A stretch of 64,000 nucleotides of DNA from Clostridium sp. (GTDB taxonomy: Bacteria; Bacillota; Dethiobacteria; Dethiobacterales; Dethiobacteraceae). This document shows, in pieces, positions 1-19,545 of this stretch (position 1 is the stretch's first letter; each line of letters opens with the position of its first letter). The translations under genes and the position numbers were made by a program. Below the pieces are notes generated by a model. It saw only the letters and a program-made list of their open reading frames with translations, was not told the origin of the DNA and searched no databases. The stretch is from assembly GCA_018335695.1 (NCBI GenBank), contig JAGXRV010000094.1, positions 1 through 64,000 on the forward strand, in the 5' to 3' direction.

Positions 1-410
1 AAAAACCACTTCACCTTTTAGGCTTATAGGTTTCCACTTTACAAGTCTTCCTTGTGCAGGGGAGGGTCTCCCCAGTTCACTGCCTTATCTTTGTTACCAT
101 ACCGTTCCCTTTACGCCGAGAGATTCTTCGGTGCTGCTTCCAAGCTCTTTGCACCTTCCATGGTCTTCGCCCATTAGCACGAGGCTCGACTTCTCCTTTT
201 CCCCCTTGCGAGGCCTTTTTGTCGACGCGGCAGGATTCACTTAATGTTGCGGTCTGGCAACTTGCTCGCCCTGTCTCTGACAGGTACTTCTGTCGATACG
301 CTTCTACGCACGGATTTCTCCCTACATAGGTATCCTAGCTATGGGGCGTCTTGGCACTTACCCCAACCGGACTTGCACCGGCAAGATAACACGTGCTTAT
401 CTGGGCACGC
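1..410 (-). mobile_element. Group II intron, 5' part only
   Basis: Read on the minus strand from about 410 leftwards, this non-coding stretch resembles the 5' ribozyme portion of a bacterial group II intron. It has a GCGUGCCC-like 5' end (near the usual GUGYG), the 'GGTGCAAGTCC' element near position 375, and 'GAACTGGGGAGACCC' near position 75. Short reading frames here have no credible protein content. The reverse transcriptase ORF and domains V/VI would lie beyond the left edge. The exact 5' junction could be 408 or 410. Insertion right behind a terminator fits class C introns. The call rests on remembered motif patterns, not on a covariance search. Confidence 0.65.
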
Positions 411-414
411 TGCT

Positions 415-446
415 AAAAAAAGCGCTGCTAGATAAAACGCAGCGCT
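415..446 (-). terminator. Rho-independent terminator of the ABC transporter operon
   Basis: An 8-bp perfect stem (AGCGCTGC at 439-446 pairing with 421-428 on the minus strand) with a 10-nt loop is followed by a run of T. The loop contains the stop codon of the upstream permease gene. The intron begins a few bases after the T run. Confidence 0.8.
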
Positions 447-1717
447 TCTGCCGGATCAAGCTTTACTGCCTGCCGAGCCGGGATAATACCTGCTAAAAGG
501 CTAATCAGGATAGCAAGCAAAACGGACAAGCCAAACAAATCAAGCCTCCATGGCACCTGAATAGACATATCGGCCAGCAGCGGTCCGGCGTAGTAAGCCA
601 CAGCCATCCCCGCAAAGTATCCTAACATCCCGCCAAACAGACTGACTATGAGACCTTCCAGTAAAATAATTTTTACCACATCTGCTTTGCGGAAACCAAT
701 GGCGCGAAAAATGCCGATTTCGCGGGTTCGTTCCCGAACGGCTCCGGACATGGTAAGCCCCACCACCAGCATCCCCACAAAGAGAATCAGTACCGATACC
801 GATGTCCCGAACCTTACCAGCCTGGTAATCATTTCATCCCGACGAAGAGCTTCCTGACGCAGACTGGTGACTTCCACGTTGGGCAGCGCCTCTTGCAGTT
901 CGGCAAGCAGCACTTCCTCGGAACCTAAGCTATAATCTGCTGCCATTTCAATCAATGTCACTTGATCAGGGCGTCCCAAAAGTGCCTGAGCTGCGCTAAG
1001 ATTTAAGAGAATCTGCTCATCTTCGGCAGAACCACTATCTTTAAGAACGGCAAACACTTGAAATTCCCGCCCCGAGAGCGTCAACAAGTCACCCTCCATT
1101 ACACCCAAAGCAGCGGCTAGATTTGAACCGACCAAAATTTGCTCATCGCTTAACACTAAGCGGCTTAGATCCTCCCGCGCTAGATCCAGCATCGCAAAAT
1201 CCATTTCTTTTTCTGCTGCGGGCTCGGTCCCCTCAGTGTTGTTTCCGCTTTCGCTATACATTTCCTCCTCACTGCGCAAGCGCAACCAAGGCTTCACCAT
1301 AAATTCCTGCTGCGGATTTACGCCTACCACCACTACGTTCTGCCCTTCGGCATCGCCCGGATGTCCGCCGCCTGCGGTGGCCAGACCCAATAATTTTGGC
1401 GCCACCGCGCGAATTACTTCGCGTGAAGGGATATTTTCAATGGCAGCCACATCCTCGCCGCTCAACTGTTCGACATCAAAGAGCACTGCCGGCAATGTGA
1501 TGCCTCCGTAAGAAAAGGTTAGCTCTCCCGCATCCGGCATAATAATTACATTGGCGCCGAATTTAGCCACCTGTCTGGTCATTTCCGTTCTCATAGCTTC
1601 CACAACGCCGTAGACAGAAACCATAGTCGCTATCCCTATCAGCAAACCTAACAGCACAAAGAGCATTTTTGCCTTGCGTCGCCTGATGTTATTTAAGGCA
1701 ATATGATAAAGTTGCAT
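428..1717 (-). CDS. FtsX/MacB-type ABC transporter permease
   Basis: This 429-residue membrane protein has one N-terminal transmembrane helix (about residues 15-40), a large extracytoplasmic MacB-PCD-like domain (about 45-300) and three C-terminal helices (about 300-420) of the FtsX family. It carries the family-typical 'REIGIFRAIGFRKADV' segment and ends 'PAEALRFI'. It is the last gene of the five-gene operon and lies 12 nt after the ATPase gene. It is a paralogue of the permease at 2473-3672, so the two probably form a heterodimer with the ATPase between them. FtsX-type permeases usually act mechanically on periplasmic or extracellular partners rather than importing small solutes. The substrate is unknown; see the DUF2318 entry for context. 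Confidence 0.85.
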   Translation of the reverse strand: MQLYHIALNNIRRRKAKMLFVLLGLLIGIATMVSVYGVVEAMRTEMTRQVAKFGANVIIMPDAGELTFSYGGITLPAVLFDVEQLSGEDVAAIENIPSREVIRAVAPKLLGLATAGGGHPGDAEGQNVVVVGVNPQQEFMVKPWLRLRSEEEMYSESGNNTEGTEPAAEKEMDFAMLDLAREDLSRLVLSDEQILVGSNLAAALGVMEGDLLTLSGREFQVFAVLKDSGSAEDEQILLNLSAAQALLGRPDQVTLIEMAADYSLGSEEVLLAELQEALPNVEVTSLRQEALRRDEMITRLVRFGTSVSVLILFVGMLVVGLTMSGAVRERTREIGIFRAIGFRKADVVKIILLEGLIVSLFGGMLGYFAGMAVAYYAGPLLADMSIQVPWRLDLFGLSVLLAILISLLAGIIPARQAVKLDPAEALRFI

Positions 1718-1729
1718 TATATCCCTCCG

Positions 1730-2446
1730 TTACCGTTTGCCGGCAGAAACCAATTGTAAAAGCTCCGCTTTGTCCGTACACAGCCGGCCGTCCTTCATAA
1801 TAATCGTGCGGCTCATATAGCGAGTGTTCTCCGGATTGTGAGTCACCATCAGCACCGTCAGCCCGTCTTCATTCAGACGCTGAAACAATGCCATAATTTC
1901 ATCACCTGTTTTTGTATCCAGGCTGCCTGTCGGCTCGTCGGCAAGCAACACAGGAGGCTCATTAACAATCGCCCGGGCGATAGCCACCCGCTCCTGCTCA
2001 CCGCCCGACAACTGATTTGGCAGCCTGTTCATTTTTCCGGCCAACCCCACCCGGCAAAGAACGCTTCCCGCCATTTCACGCTTTTCTTTATTAGACTTTT
2101 TGACGGTCGTCAAAGGGAGCATTACATTTTCGAGAGCCGTTAAATATGGGATTAACTGAAACTGTTGAAAGACAAAACCCAAGTATTCCCGCCGAAAATC
2201 GGCGCGCTTTTCCTGCGAAAGGGCGTAGACGTCAATCCCGTCAACCTCCACACTGCCGGATGTCGGCGGATTAAGTGCGCCAAGAATGGAAAGCAGCGTA
2301 CTCTTACCCGAACCGGATTGACCCATCACAGCCACCGATTCTCCCTTGTCAATATTCAAGCTTACGCCACGCAGCGCTTGTACTTCATCGCCCATCGATT
2401 TATATACTTTTGTCAGGTTCTTCATTGCAATCATAACTTCAGCCAT
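1730..2446 (-). CDS. ABC transporter ATP-binding protein (LolD/MacB type)
   Basis: Cytoplasmic ATPase subunit of the operon's ABC transporter, 238 residues. Visible motifs are Walker A 'GQSGSGKST', Q-loop '[11 protein letters not shown]', signature '[14 protein letters not shown]', Walker B '[12 protein letters not shown]' and the H-loop 'VTHNPE', the layout of the MacB/LolD subfamily that pairs with FtsX-type permeases. A TTG start at 2476 would add ten residues, but the ATG at 2446 has a strong AAAGGAGG about 7 nt upstream and gives the usual length. The gene sits between its two permease genes, which supports a heteromeric transporter. Confidence 0.92.
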
Positions 2447-2472
2447 CCTCTTTCCTCCTTTACTTTGTTCGC

Positions 2473-3672
2473 TCAAATGTAGCGCAGTGCCTCAGCCGGG
2501 TCAAGCTGAGCAGCTTTTACTGCCGGGTAAGCGCTCGCGAGAACAGCCAACACGGCGGACAACAAAACAGCAGGCAGAATCAGCTCGGTCCGCAGAGGAA
2601 CGTCTCCTTGAATCTGAGCCAAAAACGGCCCGGCCACCTGAGCTACGGCGCTGCCCAAAATATATCCTGCCAAGCCTCCCATTGCGCTTACTATTGCCGC
2701 CTCCAGGAAGATAATTTCCATCACATGAACCCGACGGAAGCCGATAGCTCTAAAAATTCCAATTTCGCGTGTTCGTTCGTTAACAGAGGAAAGCATGGTT
2801 GTCAAAACCACCAGCGCCGCAATCAACAAAACTACTCCGGAGAGCGCAAAACCAAAAGCTGAAAACTGATCAATAGTCTGATAGCGAAACATGGCGGCTT
2901 GCCTCAGAGCAATAACCCTGCCGTTAGGCAAAGCTGCGGAAAGTCCCGCCACAACTTCTTCAATAGGACAGAAATTGCACCAAGCAGAAACCTCAATCAT
3001 CGACAATTGACCCGGACGGCCCAAAAGTCCTTGCACAGCGGCTAAGTCGGCATAAATCAAACCATCTTCCTCAGCACCAAGCTCATTTAGGATGCCAAAT
3101 ACAGAAAAAGTACGCTCATTAATGACCAGCGTGTCGCCCACCCTTTTCTCCAGGTGCTGCGCCGCCGAAGAGCCTAAAATCACGCCGTCTTCAGGCACAT
3201 CCAATAGAGCCAAATCGCCCACCTTGCCTCCGGCCGGCACGCCTGCCTGTTCACGCAGAGAAAACCAAGGCTTCTGGGTAAACTCTTGTTTTGCTTCCAC
3301 GCCCACAATCAGCGCGTTTTGCCCGTCAGCCTTAACAGCGCCAACCAGCTTAGGAGAAACAATATTAATGTATTCCGCGACTACTGACTGGCGAATCTTA
3401 GGCAGGTCAGCCATCGTCAATTCCTGCACATCAAAGATCACATCAGATACTACTGTGTCGCCAAAGCTTAATTCAACCCCTTCGGAACGCGGCACAATCA
3501 CAGCGTTGGCACCAAACTCGTCAATTCTGTCACCCAACTCCAGACGCATGGCTTGGACTATACTCATGAGAGCGACTACGGTAGCAACCCCCACCACCAG
3601 ACCTAAAGTCAGAAAGAGCATTTTCATTCTGCGTCGTTTCAGGTTGTTAGCGGCAATCTGCAATAGATTCAT
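2473..3672 (-). CDS. FtsX/MacB-type ABC transporter permease
   Basis: This 399-residue permease has the same layout as the protein at 428-1717: one N-terminal helix (about 15-40), a MacB-PCD-like outer domain, then three helices (about 270-395) with 'REIGIFRAIGFRRVHV' and the end 'PAEALRYI'. One difference is 'CNFC' (about residues 232-235) in the outer domain, a possible redox or metal-binding pair that its paralogue lacks. It is followed closely by the ATPase gene and preceded by the small Cys-rich gene. In the Campylobacter P19 cluster, two such permeases also stand next to a DUF2318 gene. Confidence 0.85.
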   Translation of the reverse strand: MNLLQIAANNLKRRRMKMLFLTLGLVVGVATVVALMSIVQAMRLELGDRIDEFGANAVIVPRSEGVELSFGDTVVSDVIFDVQELTMADLPKIRQSVVAEYINIVSPKLVGAVKADGQNALIVGVEAKQEFTQKPWFSLREQAGVPAGGKVGDLALLDVPEDGVILGSSAAQHLEKRVGDTLVINERTFSVFGILNELGAEEDGLIYADLAAVQGLLGRPGQLSMIEVSAWCNFCPIEEVVAGLSAALPNGRVIALRQAAMFRYQTIDQFSAFGFALSGVVLLIAALVVLTTMLSSVNERTREIGIFRAIGFRRVHVMEIIFLEAAIVSAMGGLAGYILGSAVAQVAGPFLAQIQGDVPLRTELILPAVLLSAVLAVLASAYPAVKAAQLDPAEALRYI

Positions 3673-3700: not shown

Positions 3701-4090
3701 TCAGGACATCCGGAAGAGTTGACCGGAAGCATAGCCTATCCGCATCACTCTTCTTCCGCCTTTGTAAATATAAATCTCCTGGTGACAGCCAAAATCCCGA
3801 ACCCTCGCCTGCACATCAGCTATTTCCGTATCGCCGCTGTTCTCCGCATAGAATTCCAGCCCAATCCGTACCAATTCCTCTTCTGTGAGGCTGGACGCAG
3901 CTCCGCTTGCGACACCGCACCCGCCGCAACCACCTGCGCCGGAGCCGGCGCGGGCGTCGATGTAATTGTTAATGCCCATCATCGCTACCAAAGCAATTAG
4001 AGTGATTAAAAGGTAATCCTTAAAACTGCCGCCGCCCCTTTTTGCCGTTGTGCCGACTAATTCCTCTTCTTGGTAAATTTCCTTTGTCAT
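3701..4090 (-). CDS. Small membrane-anchored Cys-rich protein, function unknown
   Basis: This 129-residue protein is not recognised as a named family. It has a hydrophilic start, one transmembrane helix (about 28-42, 'YLLITLIALVAMMGI'), then a Gly/Cys stretch 'GGCGGCG' around residue 55 and a folded-looking C-terminal part with one more Cys ('FGCHQEIYIY'). The tail is probably extracytoplasmic. It lies between the DUF2318 gene and the first permease gene, all in one direction, so it probably works with the transporter. The Cys cluster could bind a metal or undergo thiol chemistry; this is inference from composition and context. Confidence 0.7.
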   Translation of the reverse strand: MTKEIYQEEELVGTTAKRGGGSFKDYLLITLIALVAMMGINNYIDARAGSGAGGCGGCGVASGAASSLTEEELVRIGLEFYAENSGDTEIADVQARVRDFGCHQEIYIYKGGRRVMRIGYASGQLFRMS

Positions 4091-4120: not shown

Positions 4121-4711
4121 TTAGAGCGCACGAATCCGCCAGTTAAGCACTTCCTGCAAGTCAATAACGACCATCCCGTCTGCTACTCTGCCATTCATAT
4201 TAACCGGCGGATAAGAGCCGCAGACCACCGCACCCGAAATAAATTGGTGATCCTCAATAGTATAAGTGGTCCGGCATGCATCACACACAAGCGTTTCACC
4301 GGCCAAGGAAAAAGTTTGACCGCGGCATGGCTCACACATGCTGCTGCCGACAAATAGCCGTCCGGTAGGAGTAAGATAAGCCATTAGCGGCACTAGCGTC
4401 CCCTGGTCATTTTCCGCGCTGAAAGAAACGATGCTGTAACGCTCTAAATCAGCGAGTGGAAACTTGATCTGACCGCCTTCAATCAACGGTTCTATCGCCG
4501 TCATGGAAATAAAACGTCCTACATATGAACGCTCCGCCGTCACCGGTTCCCCAAAATATACCACTTCAGCCTGAGTATCATTACCAACAAATTGAGAATA
4601 GACAAATCCAAGCGCCAGGAGGATAACCACAATCCCGGCAATCAGCGGCAACTTACTTTTATCCGGCTGAACAAACTGCTCTTTTTTCCCAATCGCTCTC
4701 TTCTTAGTCAC
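4121..4711 (-). CDS. DUF2318 domain protein, membrane anchored
   Basis: First gene of the transporter operon, 196 residues. There is one N-terminal transmembrane helix (about 22-40), then an extracytoplasmic domain with two CxxC pairs ('SSMCEPCRGQTF' and 'LVCDACRTTY') and a later 'VVCGSYPP', the DUF2318 pattern. In Campylobacter jejuni a DUF2318 gene sits beside two FtsX-type permease genes and an ATPase gene in the P19 iron-uptake locus. FTR1 permease and P19 are both missing here. A role in metal or thiol handling is inferred. A sigma-A-like promoter and a BlaI-like dyad lie upstream. Confidence 0.8.
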   Translation of the reverse strand: MTKKRAIGKKEQFVQPDKSKLPLIAGIVVILLALGFVYSQFVGNDTQAEVVYFGEPVTAERSYVGRFISMTAIEPLIEGGQIKFPLADLERYSIVSFSAENDQGTLVPLMAYLTPTGRLFVGSSMCEPCRGQTFSLAGETLVCDACRTTYTIEDHQFISGAVVCGSYPPVNMNGRVADGMVVIDLQEVLNWRIRAL

Positions 4712-4743: not shown

Positions 4744-4797
4744 TACTAACCATTGTAGTAGATGATTTTATTATACGGCAGCGGCTGAGGAAATACA
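4744..4797 (-). promoter_or_regulatory. Promoter and BlaI-like operator of the DUF2318/ABC operon
   Basis: On the minus strand TTGTAT (4792-4797) and TATAAT (4769-4774) are separated by 17 nt. Just downstream of the -10 lies the dyad TACTA-N7-TAGTA (4744-4760), placed to block initiation. The same pattern, TACTA-N7-TAGTT, occurs at the promoter of the BlaI-type gene 1.8 kb away, and the two sites share the 12-mer CATCTACTACAA on opposite strands. Confidence 0.6.
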
Positions 4798-4871
4798 ATA
4801 GCTAATTTGCGGTCAATCAACTTTATTTCATCCTTCTATCATCCGCTCCTACTTAACGCTCTCCTCAAGCC

Positions 4872-5023
4872 CCCTCACCCTAGCCCTCTCCCCCTGAAGG
4901 GGGAGAGGGGAGAAAGCCAACAATTCCCCTCTCCCTCTGGGAGAGGCCGTGCTCAATCCCCTCTCCCTCTGGGAGAGGCCGTGCTTAATCCCCTCTCCCT
5001 CTGGGAGAGGGTTAGGGTGAGGG
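4872..5023. repeat. MITE-like element with internal 32-bp tandem repeats
   Basis: The gap 4712-5077 holds no gene. It contains an element bounded by 21-bp inverted repeats (4872-4892 and 5003-5023, one mismatch) of the CCCTCACCCTAACCCTCTCCC type. Inside are two full 32-bp units (4926-4957, 4958-4989) and a partial third, each with the short palindrome CCCTCTCCCTCTGGGAGAGG. Related sequence occurs near 19468-19540 and 36380-36460. This is a common REP-like intergenic family; no transposase is encoded here. Confidence 0.8.
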
Positions 5024-5077
5024 CAAAAATGAGAAGGATTACATGCAACGAGGACACATCTCTATCGAAATAACAGC

Positions 5078-6049
5078 TTAGCAAATCAGACCCAAAAAGA
5101 GAATGGTCATGACAAACATGGAGGAATTGAGCATTGAGAACAAATAACCAGGCAACGCAGCTTTTTGCTCATTTCCTGCCAAAAGAGCCGTAACCCGCTG
5201 CTCCATCTCACGCTCTCTCCCTGTGAAGTTTGCAAAAAACCCGGGACGGAGCTGTTGCCGGTCAAGCAACAGGCGCCACACTTTAAGCAGTGTAGCCGCA
5301 TACTGACGCTGACTGCCTAACAATTCCGCAGTCTCCAAATCACAGAGTCTCTCCCGCTCCAACATGTACCTGTCGAGCAAAATAGTACTAAAAGGAGTAA
5401 AAATCATCATGTCGCGCAGTAAATGCAGCAACCAGCCAATCAGCATATCTTTGCGCCGGATATGAACCAATTCATGAGTCAAAACTCCCGCCAATTCAGC
5501 ATCGGTAAGCTGCGGCAAGATAAATGTATTCACTACGACCACCGGACGATAAAATCCAGCCGCAAAAGCGGCAAATCCCCTTTGACCGGTAAAGATCAGC
5601 CTCGGCACAGCTATCCGCCACCGGCGGCAGCAGTTTCGGATAATTGACTCTACACGATGCCGCTCTTCTTTAGTAGGCTCCAGAGAAGAAGCCTGCGTCC
5701 GCCAAAGATAGATACTGCCGGCCAAAGCTTTCAGCAGACCAACAATTATGAGCAAAACCAAGAGCGGCGCTAAAAAACTAATCGCCGCTTTGCCGATGTT
5801 GCAAAGCGCCTCAAAATAAACCCAGAAAAGACCCCCAGGCAGTAATCCTGTCTGGCATCTTTTTTCCAACACAGTATGGTAAAGGGCAAAACCGGCAAAA
5901 GGAGCAATAAGTACCATTAAATAGAGGCTCTTGCGCTGTTTTGGATGTTTGATATTAAAAAGTTTAAGCGCAATGCAGAGAGCGGGGAAAATAAAAAAAT
6001 AGCCAAAGAAAACATAGATAAAGAATGAGTGCAGGTCAGTTGCCCTCAT
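5078..6049 (-). CDS. M56 (BlaR1/MecR1-type) membrane metallopeptidase
   Basis: This roughly 320-residue integral membrane peptidase has several hydrophobic segments in its first 120 residues, a zinc motif 'LTHELVHIRRKD' (HExxH) in the middle and a last helix at the C-terminus. It lacks the penicillin-binding sensor domain of true BlaR1/MecR1, so the signal it senses is unlikely to be a beta-lactam. Its start overlaps the end of the BlaI-type repressor gene. In this pairing the peptidase normally triggers inactivation of the repressor. ATG 6049 is preferred to GTG 6058 because AAGGTGG lies 5 nt upstream of it. Confidence 0.88.
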   Translation of the reverse strand: MRATDLHSFFIYVFFGYFFIFPALCIALKLFNIKHPKQRKSLYLMVLIAPFAGFALYHTVLEKRCQTGLLPGGLFWVYFEALCNIGKAAISFLAPLLVLLIIVGLLKALAGSIYLWRTQASSLEPTKEERHRVESIIRNCCRRWRIAVPRLIFTGQRGFAAFAAGFYRPVVVVNTFILPQLTDAELAGVLTHELVHIRRKDMLIGWLLHLLRDMMIFTPFSTILLDRYMLERERLCDLETAELLGSQRQYAATLLKVWRLLLDRQQLRPGFFANFTGREREMEQRVTALLAGNEQKAALPGYLFSMLNSSMFVMTILFLGLIC

Positions 6050-6467
6050 CTGTGCCACCTTCCTTGTGCTCTGCCAATAATCTCTCCAGTTTAGCTATTG
6101 TCTCCCGGTCATGGCGACCAACACGGGAAAGAAAATGCGACATGGTCGCCTCCGCAAAATCTTCCAGCAAACTATCTACCACGCTGCCGACTACGTTTAC
6201 TGTGAATTCATCCCGGCTTAAAGCAGGCTCATAGAAAGCCACATTGCCATTCTTGCGTTTGCGGAGAATCTTTTTATCTGAAAGACGCGCCATAATTGTC
6301 ATCACAGTGGTATAGGCAATTTCACGTCGAGACGACAGCTCTTCAAAAACATCTCTCACGCAGACCTCACAGCCTTTGCGCCAGATAATATCCATAACTT
6401 CGCTCTCCAGGCTGCCGAGCACTTTATTTAGACCATTCTGCCCCGGCTTAAAATCCATAGATTTCAC
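6036..6467 (-). CDS. BlaI/MecI/CopY family transcriptional repressor
   Basis: This 143-residue winged-helix repressor has the typical BlaI layout: DNA-binding part about 10-85 ('LGSLESEVMDIIW', 'IAYTTVMTIMARLSDKKILRKRKNGNVAFYEP') and a C-terminal dimerisation helix region. Start is GTG 6467 with AAGGAGG 8 nt upstream. It is followed by the M56 peptidase gene with overlap. Matching dyads at its own promoter and at the DUF2318/ABC operon suggest autoregulation and control of that operon; this is inference from sequence. Some BlaI-family repressors respond to copper (CopY) rather than through a peptidase, but the adjacent M56 gene argues for the peptidase route. Confidence 0.92.
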   Translation of the reverse strand: MKSMDFKPGQNGLNKVLGSLESEVMDIIWRKGCEVCVRDVFEELSSRREIAYTTVMTIMARLSDKKILRKRKNGNVAFYEPALSRDEFTVNVVGSVVDSLLEDFAEATMSHFLSRVGRHDRETIAKLERLLAEHKEGGTDEGN

Positions 6468-6493
6468 TTCGCCACCTCCTTGTTCCTGTCTCT

Positions 6494-6527
6494 ATTATAC
6501 TGCTCACATCTACTACAAGCAATAGTT
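6494..6527 (-). promoter_or_regulatory. Promoter and operator of the BlaI/M56 operon
   Basis: TATAAT (6494-6499, minus) is preceded at 17 nt by TTGCTT (6517-6522). The dyad TACTA-N7-TAGTT (6511-6527) overlaps the -35 and spacer. It matches the dyad at 4744-4760. Confidence 0.6.
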
Positions 6528-7154: not shown

Positions 7155-7865
7155 TTAACCCTCCAGTTCTAATAACAGCCGCTTGACAGCTTCCAGCGGA
7201 TGGCTAGCGGCAGTAAGCGGCCGCCCAATCACTAAGTAATCGGCGCCCAGCCGCAAAGCCTCTTTGGGTGTTGCAACTCGGCTCTGATCATTGCCTGCAG
7301 CCCAGGCAGGCCTGATACCCGGCGTAACAATCAAAAAATTATTCCCGCAAACTGCGCGAATATACGGAATTTCCCCAGCGGCAGCAACAACACCATCCAA
7401 GCCTGCATCAAGGCAAAGCCGAGCAAGAGAGGCAACCTGTTCCTCCAGTGGTCGGGAAACACCGATTTCTTCTCGCATTTCCTCTGACGACATAGATGTA
7501 AGCACTGTCACGCCAAGCAGCAAAGGCGCGGCAACACCAAGTTTCTCGGCTCGTTTCTTTGCTGCCGCAGCCGTATCAGCCATCATTTTCTTGCCGCCGG
7601 CAGCATGAACGTTGAACATGAAAGCACCCAGACCCACTACAGCTTCCGCAGCGCGGGCAGTCGTATTAGGGATATCATGAAACTTTAAGTCAAGAAATAT
7701 TTTAATGCCGCTGTCGGCCAGTTTTTTTACCATCGCCGGTCCGCCGTTGTTATAGAGTTGCAAGCCGACTTTAAAGGCGCCTACGTAGCTTCCCAGTGTT
7801 GCCGTCAGCGAAAGCGCTTCTTGCTCTGTCTCCACATCCAGCGCCACAATTATTTTTTCCCGCAC
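7155..7865 (-). CDS. pyrF: Orotidine 5'-phosphate decarboxylase
   Basis: Final step of UMP synthesis, decarboxylating OMP. The 236-residue TIM barrel begins '[14 protein letters not shown]' and carries the catalytic '[12 protein letters not shown]' (Lys-Asp pair) near residues 56-67, plus the phosphate-binding end '[10 protein letters not shown]'. The start is GTG at 7865 with GGAG about 11 nt upstream. It lies between pyrD and pyrE in one operon. Confidence 0.95.
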
Positions 7866-7888
7866 CCGGATTCAACTCCTGTTTTCTA

Positions 7889-8806
7889 TCATTTCTTTTT
7901 TGCCAACCCGACAATTTCCTTAACCGAAGCAAAGCCGTTCTCTTTCAGATAAGCGCTGATTCCTTCCACCGTTTCCGGACAAACAAGCGGATTTGTAAAA
8001 TTGGCTGCGCCAATGGCCACTGCACTGGCTCCTGCCATGAGAAACTCGATAGCATCCCTGGCGCCGGCAATGCCACCCATACCGATCACCGGAATCTCCA
8101 CTGCCTCGGTCACCTGCCAAACCATACGCAGCGCCACCGGTTTGATGGCAGGGCCGGACAAACCACCGGTCAGGTTGGCTAGTATCGGTCGCCGCCGCTC
8201 GACATCTATCGCCATGCCTAGCAATGTATTGATTAAGGAGAGCGCATCAGCCCCTCCCTCTGCGGCTGCCCGGGCAATCACCGTAACGTCGGTGACATTA
8301 GGGGAAAGCTTAATAATTAACGGTTTTTTTGTTGCCCCCCGCAATTCCCGCACCAAAGCGGCGACCACCAACGGATCGGTACCGAACGCCATACCTCCGG
8401 CTTTCACATTGGGGCAAGAAATATTGATTTCATAGGCTGCCACCACAGTCAAATCATCGAGCAGCTCGATAACAGCGCGATACTGAGCTGCACTGTGGCC
8501 GGACACATTAACGATTACCGGTACAGACCACTGCTGCAGCGCAATAATTTTTTCTCTGGCTGCCGCAGCTCCGGGGTTTTGCAGGCCAATAGCGTTTAAC
8601 ATTCCGCCCGTGGTTTCCGCCAAGCGCGGCGGAGGATTCCCCGCACAAGCTTCTGCTGTAGTTCCCTTGACTACCACAGCGCCCAAACGACGCAAATCGA
8701 AATATGGGACATACTCTTCACCGTAGCCAAAGCAACCTGAAGCGGGCATCACCGGATTAGCTAAGGAAACACCGGCAATTTTGACTGTCAAATCCGGTAT
8801 CAGCAA
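7889..8806 (-). CDS. pyrD: Dihydroorotate dehydrogenase, catalytic subunit (class 1B)
   Basis: FMN-containing subunit that oxidises dihydroorotate to orotate and works with PyrK to pass electrons to NAD+. The 305-residue barrel has 'LANPVMPASGCFGYGEEY', the active-site Cys region 'YEINISCPNVKAGG' and 'VIGMGGIAGARDAIEFLMAGA'. The start is TTG 8806, overlapping the last codons of pyrK. The ribosome site and start form GGAGGTG-T7-GCTG, identical over 18 nt to the start of the gene at 15537. Confidence 0.94.
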   Translation of the reverse strand: MLIPDLTVKIAGVSLANPVMPASGCFGYGEEYVPYFDLRRLGAVVVKGTTAEACAGNPPPRLAETTGGMLNAIGLQNPGAAAAREKIIALQQWSVPVIVNVSGHSAAQYRAVIELLDDLTVVAAYEINISCPNVKAGGMAFGTDPLVVAALVRELRGATKKPLIIKLSPNVTDVTVIARAAAEGGADALSLINTLLGMAIDVERRRPILANLTGGLSGPAIKPVALRMVWQVTEAVEIPVIGMGGIAGARDAIEFLMAGASAVAIGAANFTNPLVCPETVEGISAYLKENGFASVKEIVGLAKKK

Positions 8807-19467: not shown

Positions 19468-19545
19468 CCCTCACCCTAACCCTCTCCCTGAGGGAGAGGG
19501 GATCTATGTCCAAAACCAGAGGGAGAGGGGATCTGTGTCCAAAAA
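19468..19545. repeat. CCCTCACCCTAACCCTCTCCC-type REP element
   Basis: Carries the same 21-nt arm as the element at 4872-5023, followed by GAGGGAGAGGGGATCT. The GAGGGAGAGGGGATC-type piece is repeated once more about 30 nt on. Confidence 0.75.

Follow-up and report, generated by a model that had tools for sequence, protein, structure and literature searches.

Conserved dyads at both promoters link a BlaI–M56 pair without a beta-lactam sensor to a DUF2318/ABC operon in Dethiobacteria

In the BlaI-BlaR1 and MecI-MecR1 systems of Staphylococcus and Bacillus licheniformis, a repressor is encoded beside an M56 peptidase, a dyad lies at the repressor's own promoter, and the operators are of the TACA/TGTA type. 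BlaI–M56 pairs that lack a beta-lactam domain have been described, and to our knowledge hardly any of them has an established signal. The BlaI regulators of Clostridium thermocellum have small autoregulated regulons, consisting of small operons around the pair itself, with a GTCTAT-repeat motif, and the reported targets of the Mycobacterium tuberculosis BlaI are ATP synthase and cell division genes. In Campylobacter, growth at limiting iron requires FetA, a DUF2318 protein, and likewise each of the ABC proteins FetBCD; thioredoxins are believed to supply FetA/FetBCD with reducing power (PMC10783030). In gut Firmicutes, CsoR, a copper regulator, is predicted to control DUF2318 and DsbD-type genes (PMC4938975). 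We found no mention of DUF2318 and BlaI together in the open-licence papers searched, which is not proof of novelty.

In this study, the window is the whole stretch of 64,000 nucleotides that was analysed; it comes from a 2.35-Mb genome with a single BlaI-family gene, and the host organism is close to the Dethiobacter MAGs of the CROMO series, among which a 94% identical FtrD occurs. All genes of the locus lie on the minus strand. The reading frame of blaI (6036..6467; BlaI-family repressor of 143 residues, Penicillinase_R, Pfam PF03965, E=5e-26) overlaps that of m56 (5078..6058; membrane metallopeptidase of 326 residues, Pfam Peptidase_M56). These two genes are followed by ftrD (4121..4711; FtrD-like/DUF2318 protein, PF10080, E=5e-11, with invariant cysteines), by the gene for P129, a small membrane-anchored cysteine protein of 129 residues outside any Pfam family (3701..4090), and by an FtsX/MacB-type permease (2473..3672), an ABC ATPase of the LolD/MacB type (1730..2476; PF00005) and a second FtsX/MacB-type permease (428..1717), both permeases matching PF02687 and PF12704. 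The best NCBIfam match of the ATPase is LolD, with a score under the LolD cut-off. The gap between m56 and ftrD holds three tandem 32-nt copies of a palindromic sequence of the CCCCTCTCCCTCTGGGAGAGG type (4925-5020); one further copy occurs at 19479-19501, and the element looks like a dispersed REP-like repeat, a relative of which sits between the promoter and blaI in two other genomes (G001 and G003). A group II intron fragment (Rfam D1-D4-4, 103 bits) is found at the window start, downstream of the operon (242-384, minus strand).

According to the sequence-only reading of this window, a TACTA-N7-TAGTA dyad lies directly downstream of the -10 of the DUF2318 operon, a TACTA-N7-TAGTT dyad overlaps the -35 of blaI, and the two share a 12-mer on opposite strands. 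All three features are present. The former dyad, predicted operator O2 (TACTACAATGGTTAGTA on the minus strand), occupies 4744-4760, 9 nt past the -10 of the ftrD promoter (4770..4798, minus strand; -35 TTGTAT at 4793-4798, 17-bp spacer, -10 TATAAT at 4770-4775). The latter, predicted operator O1 (AACTATTGCTTGTAGTA on the minus strand), occupies 6511-6527 and encloses the -35 of the blaI promoter (6494..6522, minus strand; -35 TTGCTT at 6517-6522, 17-bp spacer, -10 TATAAT at 6494-6499). The 12-mer CATCTACTACAA is found at 6507-6518 on the plus strand and at 4753-4764 on the minus strand with 0 mismatches. Both promoters were read by eye and are backed by conservation; a sigma-70 scan flagged neither. 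By chance, 0.04 matches to TACTA-N7-TAGTW are expected within the window. The proposed form of the site required an adjustment: the dyads stand, and their best register is TACTACA-N3-TGTAGTA (17 bp, with an odd centre), slightly unlike TACTA-N7-TAGTW.

TACTA-N7-TAGTW is not frequent away from promoters, as would be expected of the proposed operators, and the genome scan returned two further places only, one inside an ORF on contig C74 and one upstream of cysK on contig C60. Neither was accepted as a further BlaI target. The match on contig C74 lies within an ORF, and the cysK match belongs to a different conserved element that is also present in G002, a genome where no BlaI was found, and that occurs in G012 without TACTA. 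This element, CTACTAAACTAATAGAATTAGTAGGAATT, is located just after the cysK -10 (L001, 1480-1525, contig C60 of G000), is conserved in congeners and partly in G012, and looks like the site of another regulator, possibly of the CymR type. Matches with one mismatch were also rejected as extra targets: three congeners show no excess over a reversed-pattern control, and in the window genome most such matches fall inside ORFs. The 2.35-Mb genome contains exactly two matches to the refined WACTA-N5-TGTAGTA, both at this locus, and no third operator was seen in the window genome by pattern scan, one-mismatch matches included.

Our survey of relatives covered 98 genomes of the class. FtrD is present in 19 and BlaI of this type in 22; both occur in 17 genomes, FtrD alone in 2, BlaI alone in 5 and neither in 74 (Fisher p=9e-13, from a 2x2 test that ignores phylogeny and thus overstates independence). 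Several of the seven single-gene genomes represent contig edges, including G083, in which a cut-off M56 and a dyad lie at the end of a contig, and two genomes in which blaI itself is at a contig end (G056 and G071). In nearly all genomes that hold both genes, the blaI-m56 pair adjoins the ftrD operon; about 14 kb of the same contig separates the two in G014, and G076 has them on separate contigs. The bearers of the locus are a group of mostly alkaline-habitat bacteria.

Conservation of the sites at both promoters, on which the sequence-only reading depended, was found throughout the BlaI-linked loci: the dyad precedes blaI in 23 of 23 (at most 2 mismatches) and ftrD in 20 of 20 (at most 1 mismatch). 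Shuffled upstream controls reached 1 mismatch in about 1% of cases and 0 mismatches never. Nine ftrD loci that lack BlaI (in Natronincola, Alkaliphilus and others, and in G088) serve as a natural control, and the dyad is absent from all nine, the best match having 3 to 5 mismatches; no Rfam elements were found upstream of these BlaI-less ftrD genes. Moreover, among 60 genomes, WACTA-N5-TGTAGTA was counted 39 times in the 15 with BlaI vs 5 times in the 45 without it, these counts being summed by hand with symmetric sites scored on both strands. Per-base information is about 2 bits across the dyad arms and falls toward zero outside them, where the flanking DNA has diverged. Upstream of blaI, the form ACTATTG-N2-3-TGTAGTA recurs in all 23 loci, the -10 (TATAxT) is 28 bases from the dyad start in most of them, and the -35 (TTGNCT and variants) lies within the operator. 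The blaI dyad is less symmetric because the -35 forms part of the operator. The ftrD dyad of the window's family starts close behind TATAAT, and the closest relatives have a similar ftrD promoter. The conserved dyads track the presence of BlaI, which supports the claim that the BlaI–M56 pair controls the DUF2318/ABC operon, and we consider a regulatory link from BlaI to both operons to be well supported by the sequence comparison.

Three loci of the survey deserve separate mention. The ftrD genes that occur without BlaI in Natronincola and Alkaliphilus have a different upstream motif in common, with TGTGTTA/TGACACA-like repeats (L103 and L108, about 7850-7930), which are possibly the site of an alternative regulator. 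In G054 (L043, 3959-4552), the ftrD start is joined in frame with the end of the ABC gene, which may reflect a deletion of the operon middle or an assembly fault. In G007 (L067), BlaI with its dyad is seemingly not accompanied by an M56 gene, and FtsX and the remaining transporter operon come directly after it.

The winged-helix domain PF03965 covers BlaI over its full length (model positions 1-114/115), and the best PDB match is 2g9w (E=5e-22), which we take to be M. tuberculosis Rv1846c. The dyad at the repressor's own promoter is of the TACA/TGTA type, with 3 bp, not 2, between the halves. The only cysteines of BlaI are C33 and C36, and membership in CopY was rejected on account of the missing C-terminal Cys-x-Cys and an NCBIfam score of 53 bits vs a cut-off of 122. 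In a profile alignment, His111-Phe112 aligns with Asn101-Phe102, the cleavage site of the Staphylococcus aureus BlaI; Asp103-Phe104 was therefore rejected as the cleavage site. At the predicted site, His or Ser takes the place of Asn at P1, and the Phe is kept in most relatives and replaced by Leu in two.

The M56 protein had been read as lacking a beta-lactam sensor, and indeed no penicillin-binding Pfam domain was found in it. It has four hydrophobic segments with a gluzincin motif, HELVH, at 195-199 between membrane helices, its predicted model finds its best PDB matches in BlaR1, and its last residue, 326, follows immediately on the fourth membrane helix, at the point where the penicillin-binding domain of BlaR1 is located. 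The self-cleavage residue Phe284 of BlaR1 aligns with F278, and this Phe is conserved. Proteolytic release of BlaI is plausible because, by sequence comparison, the cleavage-site Phe of both BlaR1 and BlaI align. The signalling loop EL1 of BlaR1 comprises residues 56-96 (PMC9834060), and C68 and C86 of M56 fall in the matching stretch, between TM2 and TM3. These two cysteines are invariant (11 of 11 in both alignments), and C326, the last residue, is present in 10 of 11 and 11 of 11, being missing at the end of one relative. The trio is kept down to 26-33% identity, including the 26%-identical M56 of G095, which is encoded beside another FtsX–ABC operon; the M56 of G012 is of another kind, with no Cys in the corresponding loop. 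From the BlaR1 topology and hydropathy, C68, C86 and C326 are predicted to face outwards, the loop being of low confidence in the model. The outer cysteines suggest that M56 is a thiol- or metal-based sensor, and our proposal that these three residues are themselves the sensor is a tentative one, which we rate a little short of even.

FtrD has one N-terminal membrane segment and a CxxC-x13-CxxC-x17-C motif (C126, C129, C143, C146 and C164). The Campylobacter DUF2318 motif is CxxC-x13-CxxC-x14/15-C (PMC6083913); CxxC-x13-CxxC is thus identical, and the last spacing is x17 instead of x14/15. The notion that the ABC module is metal- or thiol-related gains support from this homology between FtrD and the DUF2318 portion of FetA from Campylobacter. 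However, a full Fet iron system was rejected: an FTR1-type permease (PF03239) was detected in 0 of the 98 genomes, positive controls being detected. No P19 (FetP) was recognised beside the operon. Because FTR1 is absent from the class, a Campylobacter-like iron uptake is not implied and the module stands alone. In the alignment of relatives, the P129 family has a single membrane segment, a variable CC/CGGC stretch and an invariant GCH-x-E; its fold has no PDB match with E below 0.1, and no Pfam family was assigned. On balance, we believe that the module does extracytoplasmic metal/thiol redox work.

In some relatives, the dyads precede additional genes. In G014 (Dethiobacter CROMO_A_105), they are also found before an ABC/FtsX pair and before a cytochrome-c-maturation operon that encodes CcmE, CcmF, CcmB and a CcmC-type protein, plus paralogues of FtrD and FtsX. 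A DsbD/CcdA-like gene, assigned from Pfam scores just under the cut-off, has a dyad directly upstream in both G012 and G014; it is present in only these 2 of the 98 genomes and was rejected as a general member of the regulon. Furthermore, dyads lie upstream of an FMN-binding (FMN_bind) lipoprotein gene in G012, of other FtsX–ABC operons in G046 and G095, and of P129 in G046, where ftrD is missing. These extra genes fit an extracytoplasmic redox theme, each on the basis of one or two genomes.

Comparison of the loci shows the operators, how they are conserved and how they go with BlaI, and we infer BlaI binding, proteolysis, the signal and the substrate as follows. When no signal is present, a BlaI dimer would sit on operators of the TACTACA-N3-TGTAGTA type and so cover the blaI-m56 -35 as well as the region where the ftrD-P129-ftsX-ABC-ftsX operon starts; that BlaI represses both promoters is very probable. 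M56, a zinc protease of the inner face, would respond to an extracytoplasmic signal, most probably the state of C68, C86 and C326 (thiol/disulfide or metal-bound), by cutting BlaI before Phe112, so that both operons would be derepressed. Relief of repression through proteolysis by M56 has good odds in our judgement. The induced module would be a stand-alone relative of FetABCD, composed of an outward-facing CxxC protein and an FtsX/MacB-type ABC pump with a task in metal- or thiol-redox work, and related redox operons would join the regulon in some relatives. Overall, we consider it likely that a Fet-like redox/metal ABC module is under the control of an autoregulated BlaI–M56 switch, which probably senses the thiol/metal state outside the cytoplasm.

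Other readings of the dyads and of the signal must be weighed against this switch. The inverted repeats are able to form stems, and the ftrD site lies at the predicted transcript start, so that RNA hairpins, or chance repeats, might be seen in place of operators. However, the site at blaI extends over the -35 and thus lies outside the transcript from that promoter, and it is the primary sequence that is invariant, not pairing alone; we regard this explanation as barely credible. It is also very improbable that the dyads belong to another regulator, e.g., Fur, CsoR or CymR, and lie near blaI by happenstance. DUF2318 genes elsewhere are placed under Fur or CsoR, and the cysK match, one of the two other matches in the genome, resembles another regulator's site, but the sites track BlaI almost perfectly, with blaI's own promoter in every locus, and the repeat agrees with the known TACA/TGTA core of BlaI/CopY.

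With regard to the signal, the module could serve heme/cytochrome c maturation, with BlaI-M56 answering to heme or the state of cytochrome assembly. The dyad at the ccm operon of G014, with its FtrD and FtsX paralogues, and the DsbD/CcdA-like dyads of G012 and G014 point in this direction, as does the requirement of M. tuberculosis blaR (Rv1845c) for heme use in TnSeq (PMC7058343). Yet the ccm link is confined to one genome and the window genome shows no third operator, and we judge this reading unlikely, with perhaps a one-in-four claim on the evidence. A role in which BlaI-M56 senses envelope stress or peptidoglycan fragments, the ABC module being an envelope-maintenance or export pump and the cysteines structural, is rather improbable. 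The ABC subunits do resemble LolD/MacB, in a module that is FtsX/MacB/LolCDE-like, and the B. licheniformis BlaI is reportedly inactivated by peptidoglycan dipeptides (PMC3305447). Against this role, the first gene of the operon encodes a CxxC-rich DUF2318 protein, the co-regulated genes in relatives are of redox/cytochrome type, and the outer cysteines of M56 are kept down to 26-33% identity.

The redox/metal switch that we prefer has several consequences. The output is known from conserved operators and three specific cysteines are at hand; therefore, the question of what a sensor-less M56 responds to becomes directly testable. The DUF2318/MacB-type module, mainly known as an accessory of Campylobacter iron uptake, gains a redox context without an iron permease and, beyond Fur and CsoR, a third type of control. 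We also offer, as a conjecture that may well fail, the view that this M56 subfamily comprises extracytoplasmic thiol/metal sensors in which an outer three-cysteine cluster replaces the beta-lactam domain and gates BlaI cleavage. If true, the architecture of penicillin-resistance signalling would be a transmembrane redox/metal switch for an outer-face redox regulon (FtrD-MacB, Ccm, DsbD and FMN_bind).

The system belongs to the BlaI repressor family and to M56, and is a relative of FetABCD without FetM; it is not CopY. With CopY/TcrY it shares a BlaI-like repressor, the CopY operator being TACA-N2-TGTA, and CopY/TcrY is the best NCBIfam match of the present BlaI, far under the cut-off; unlike CopY/TcrY, the repressor has no C-terminal Cys-x-Cys metal motif and its partner is a protease. 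As in fetMP-fetABCDEF of Campylobacter jejuni, a DUF2318 protein is combined with two ABC permeases and an ATPase. However, C. jejuni Fet has an upstream Fur site, the FetM permease, the P19 protein FetP and thioredoxins, and its FetA is an 8-TM protein with YHS, whereas here the class has no FTR1, a P129 gene is present instead, control is by BlaI and DUF2318 is on a single-span protein. The gut Firmicutes genes likewise place DUF2318 and DsbD-type proteins under one metal-linked regulator (PMC4938975), but there the copper sensor CsoR regulates and here BlaI. BlaI (Rv1846c)-Rv1845c of M. tuberculosis and BlaI_0696/BlaI_1845 of C. thermocellum are similar in being BlaI-family regulators with non-classical targets, and the GTCTAT repeats of C. 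thermocellum differ from the present dyads. The system would operate in the manner of BlaI-BlaR1; with that pair and MecI-MecR1, the locus shares the repressor gene beside M56, the dyad at its own promoter and the TACA/TGTA-type operators, as well as, with BlaR1, the M56 fold in the model and a Phe that is largely kept at both cleavage positions. It is not a beta-lactam sensor system because the defining penicillin-binding domain is absent, and no beta-lactamase or PBP target adjoins it. In contrast to the staphylococcal and bacillar systems, the TACA/TGTA halves are 3 and not 2 bases apart, three cysteines are predicted on the outer face, and the target here is a redox/metal ABC operon.
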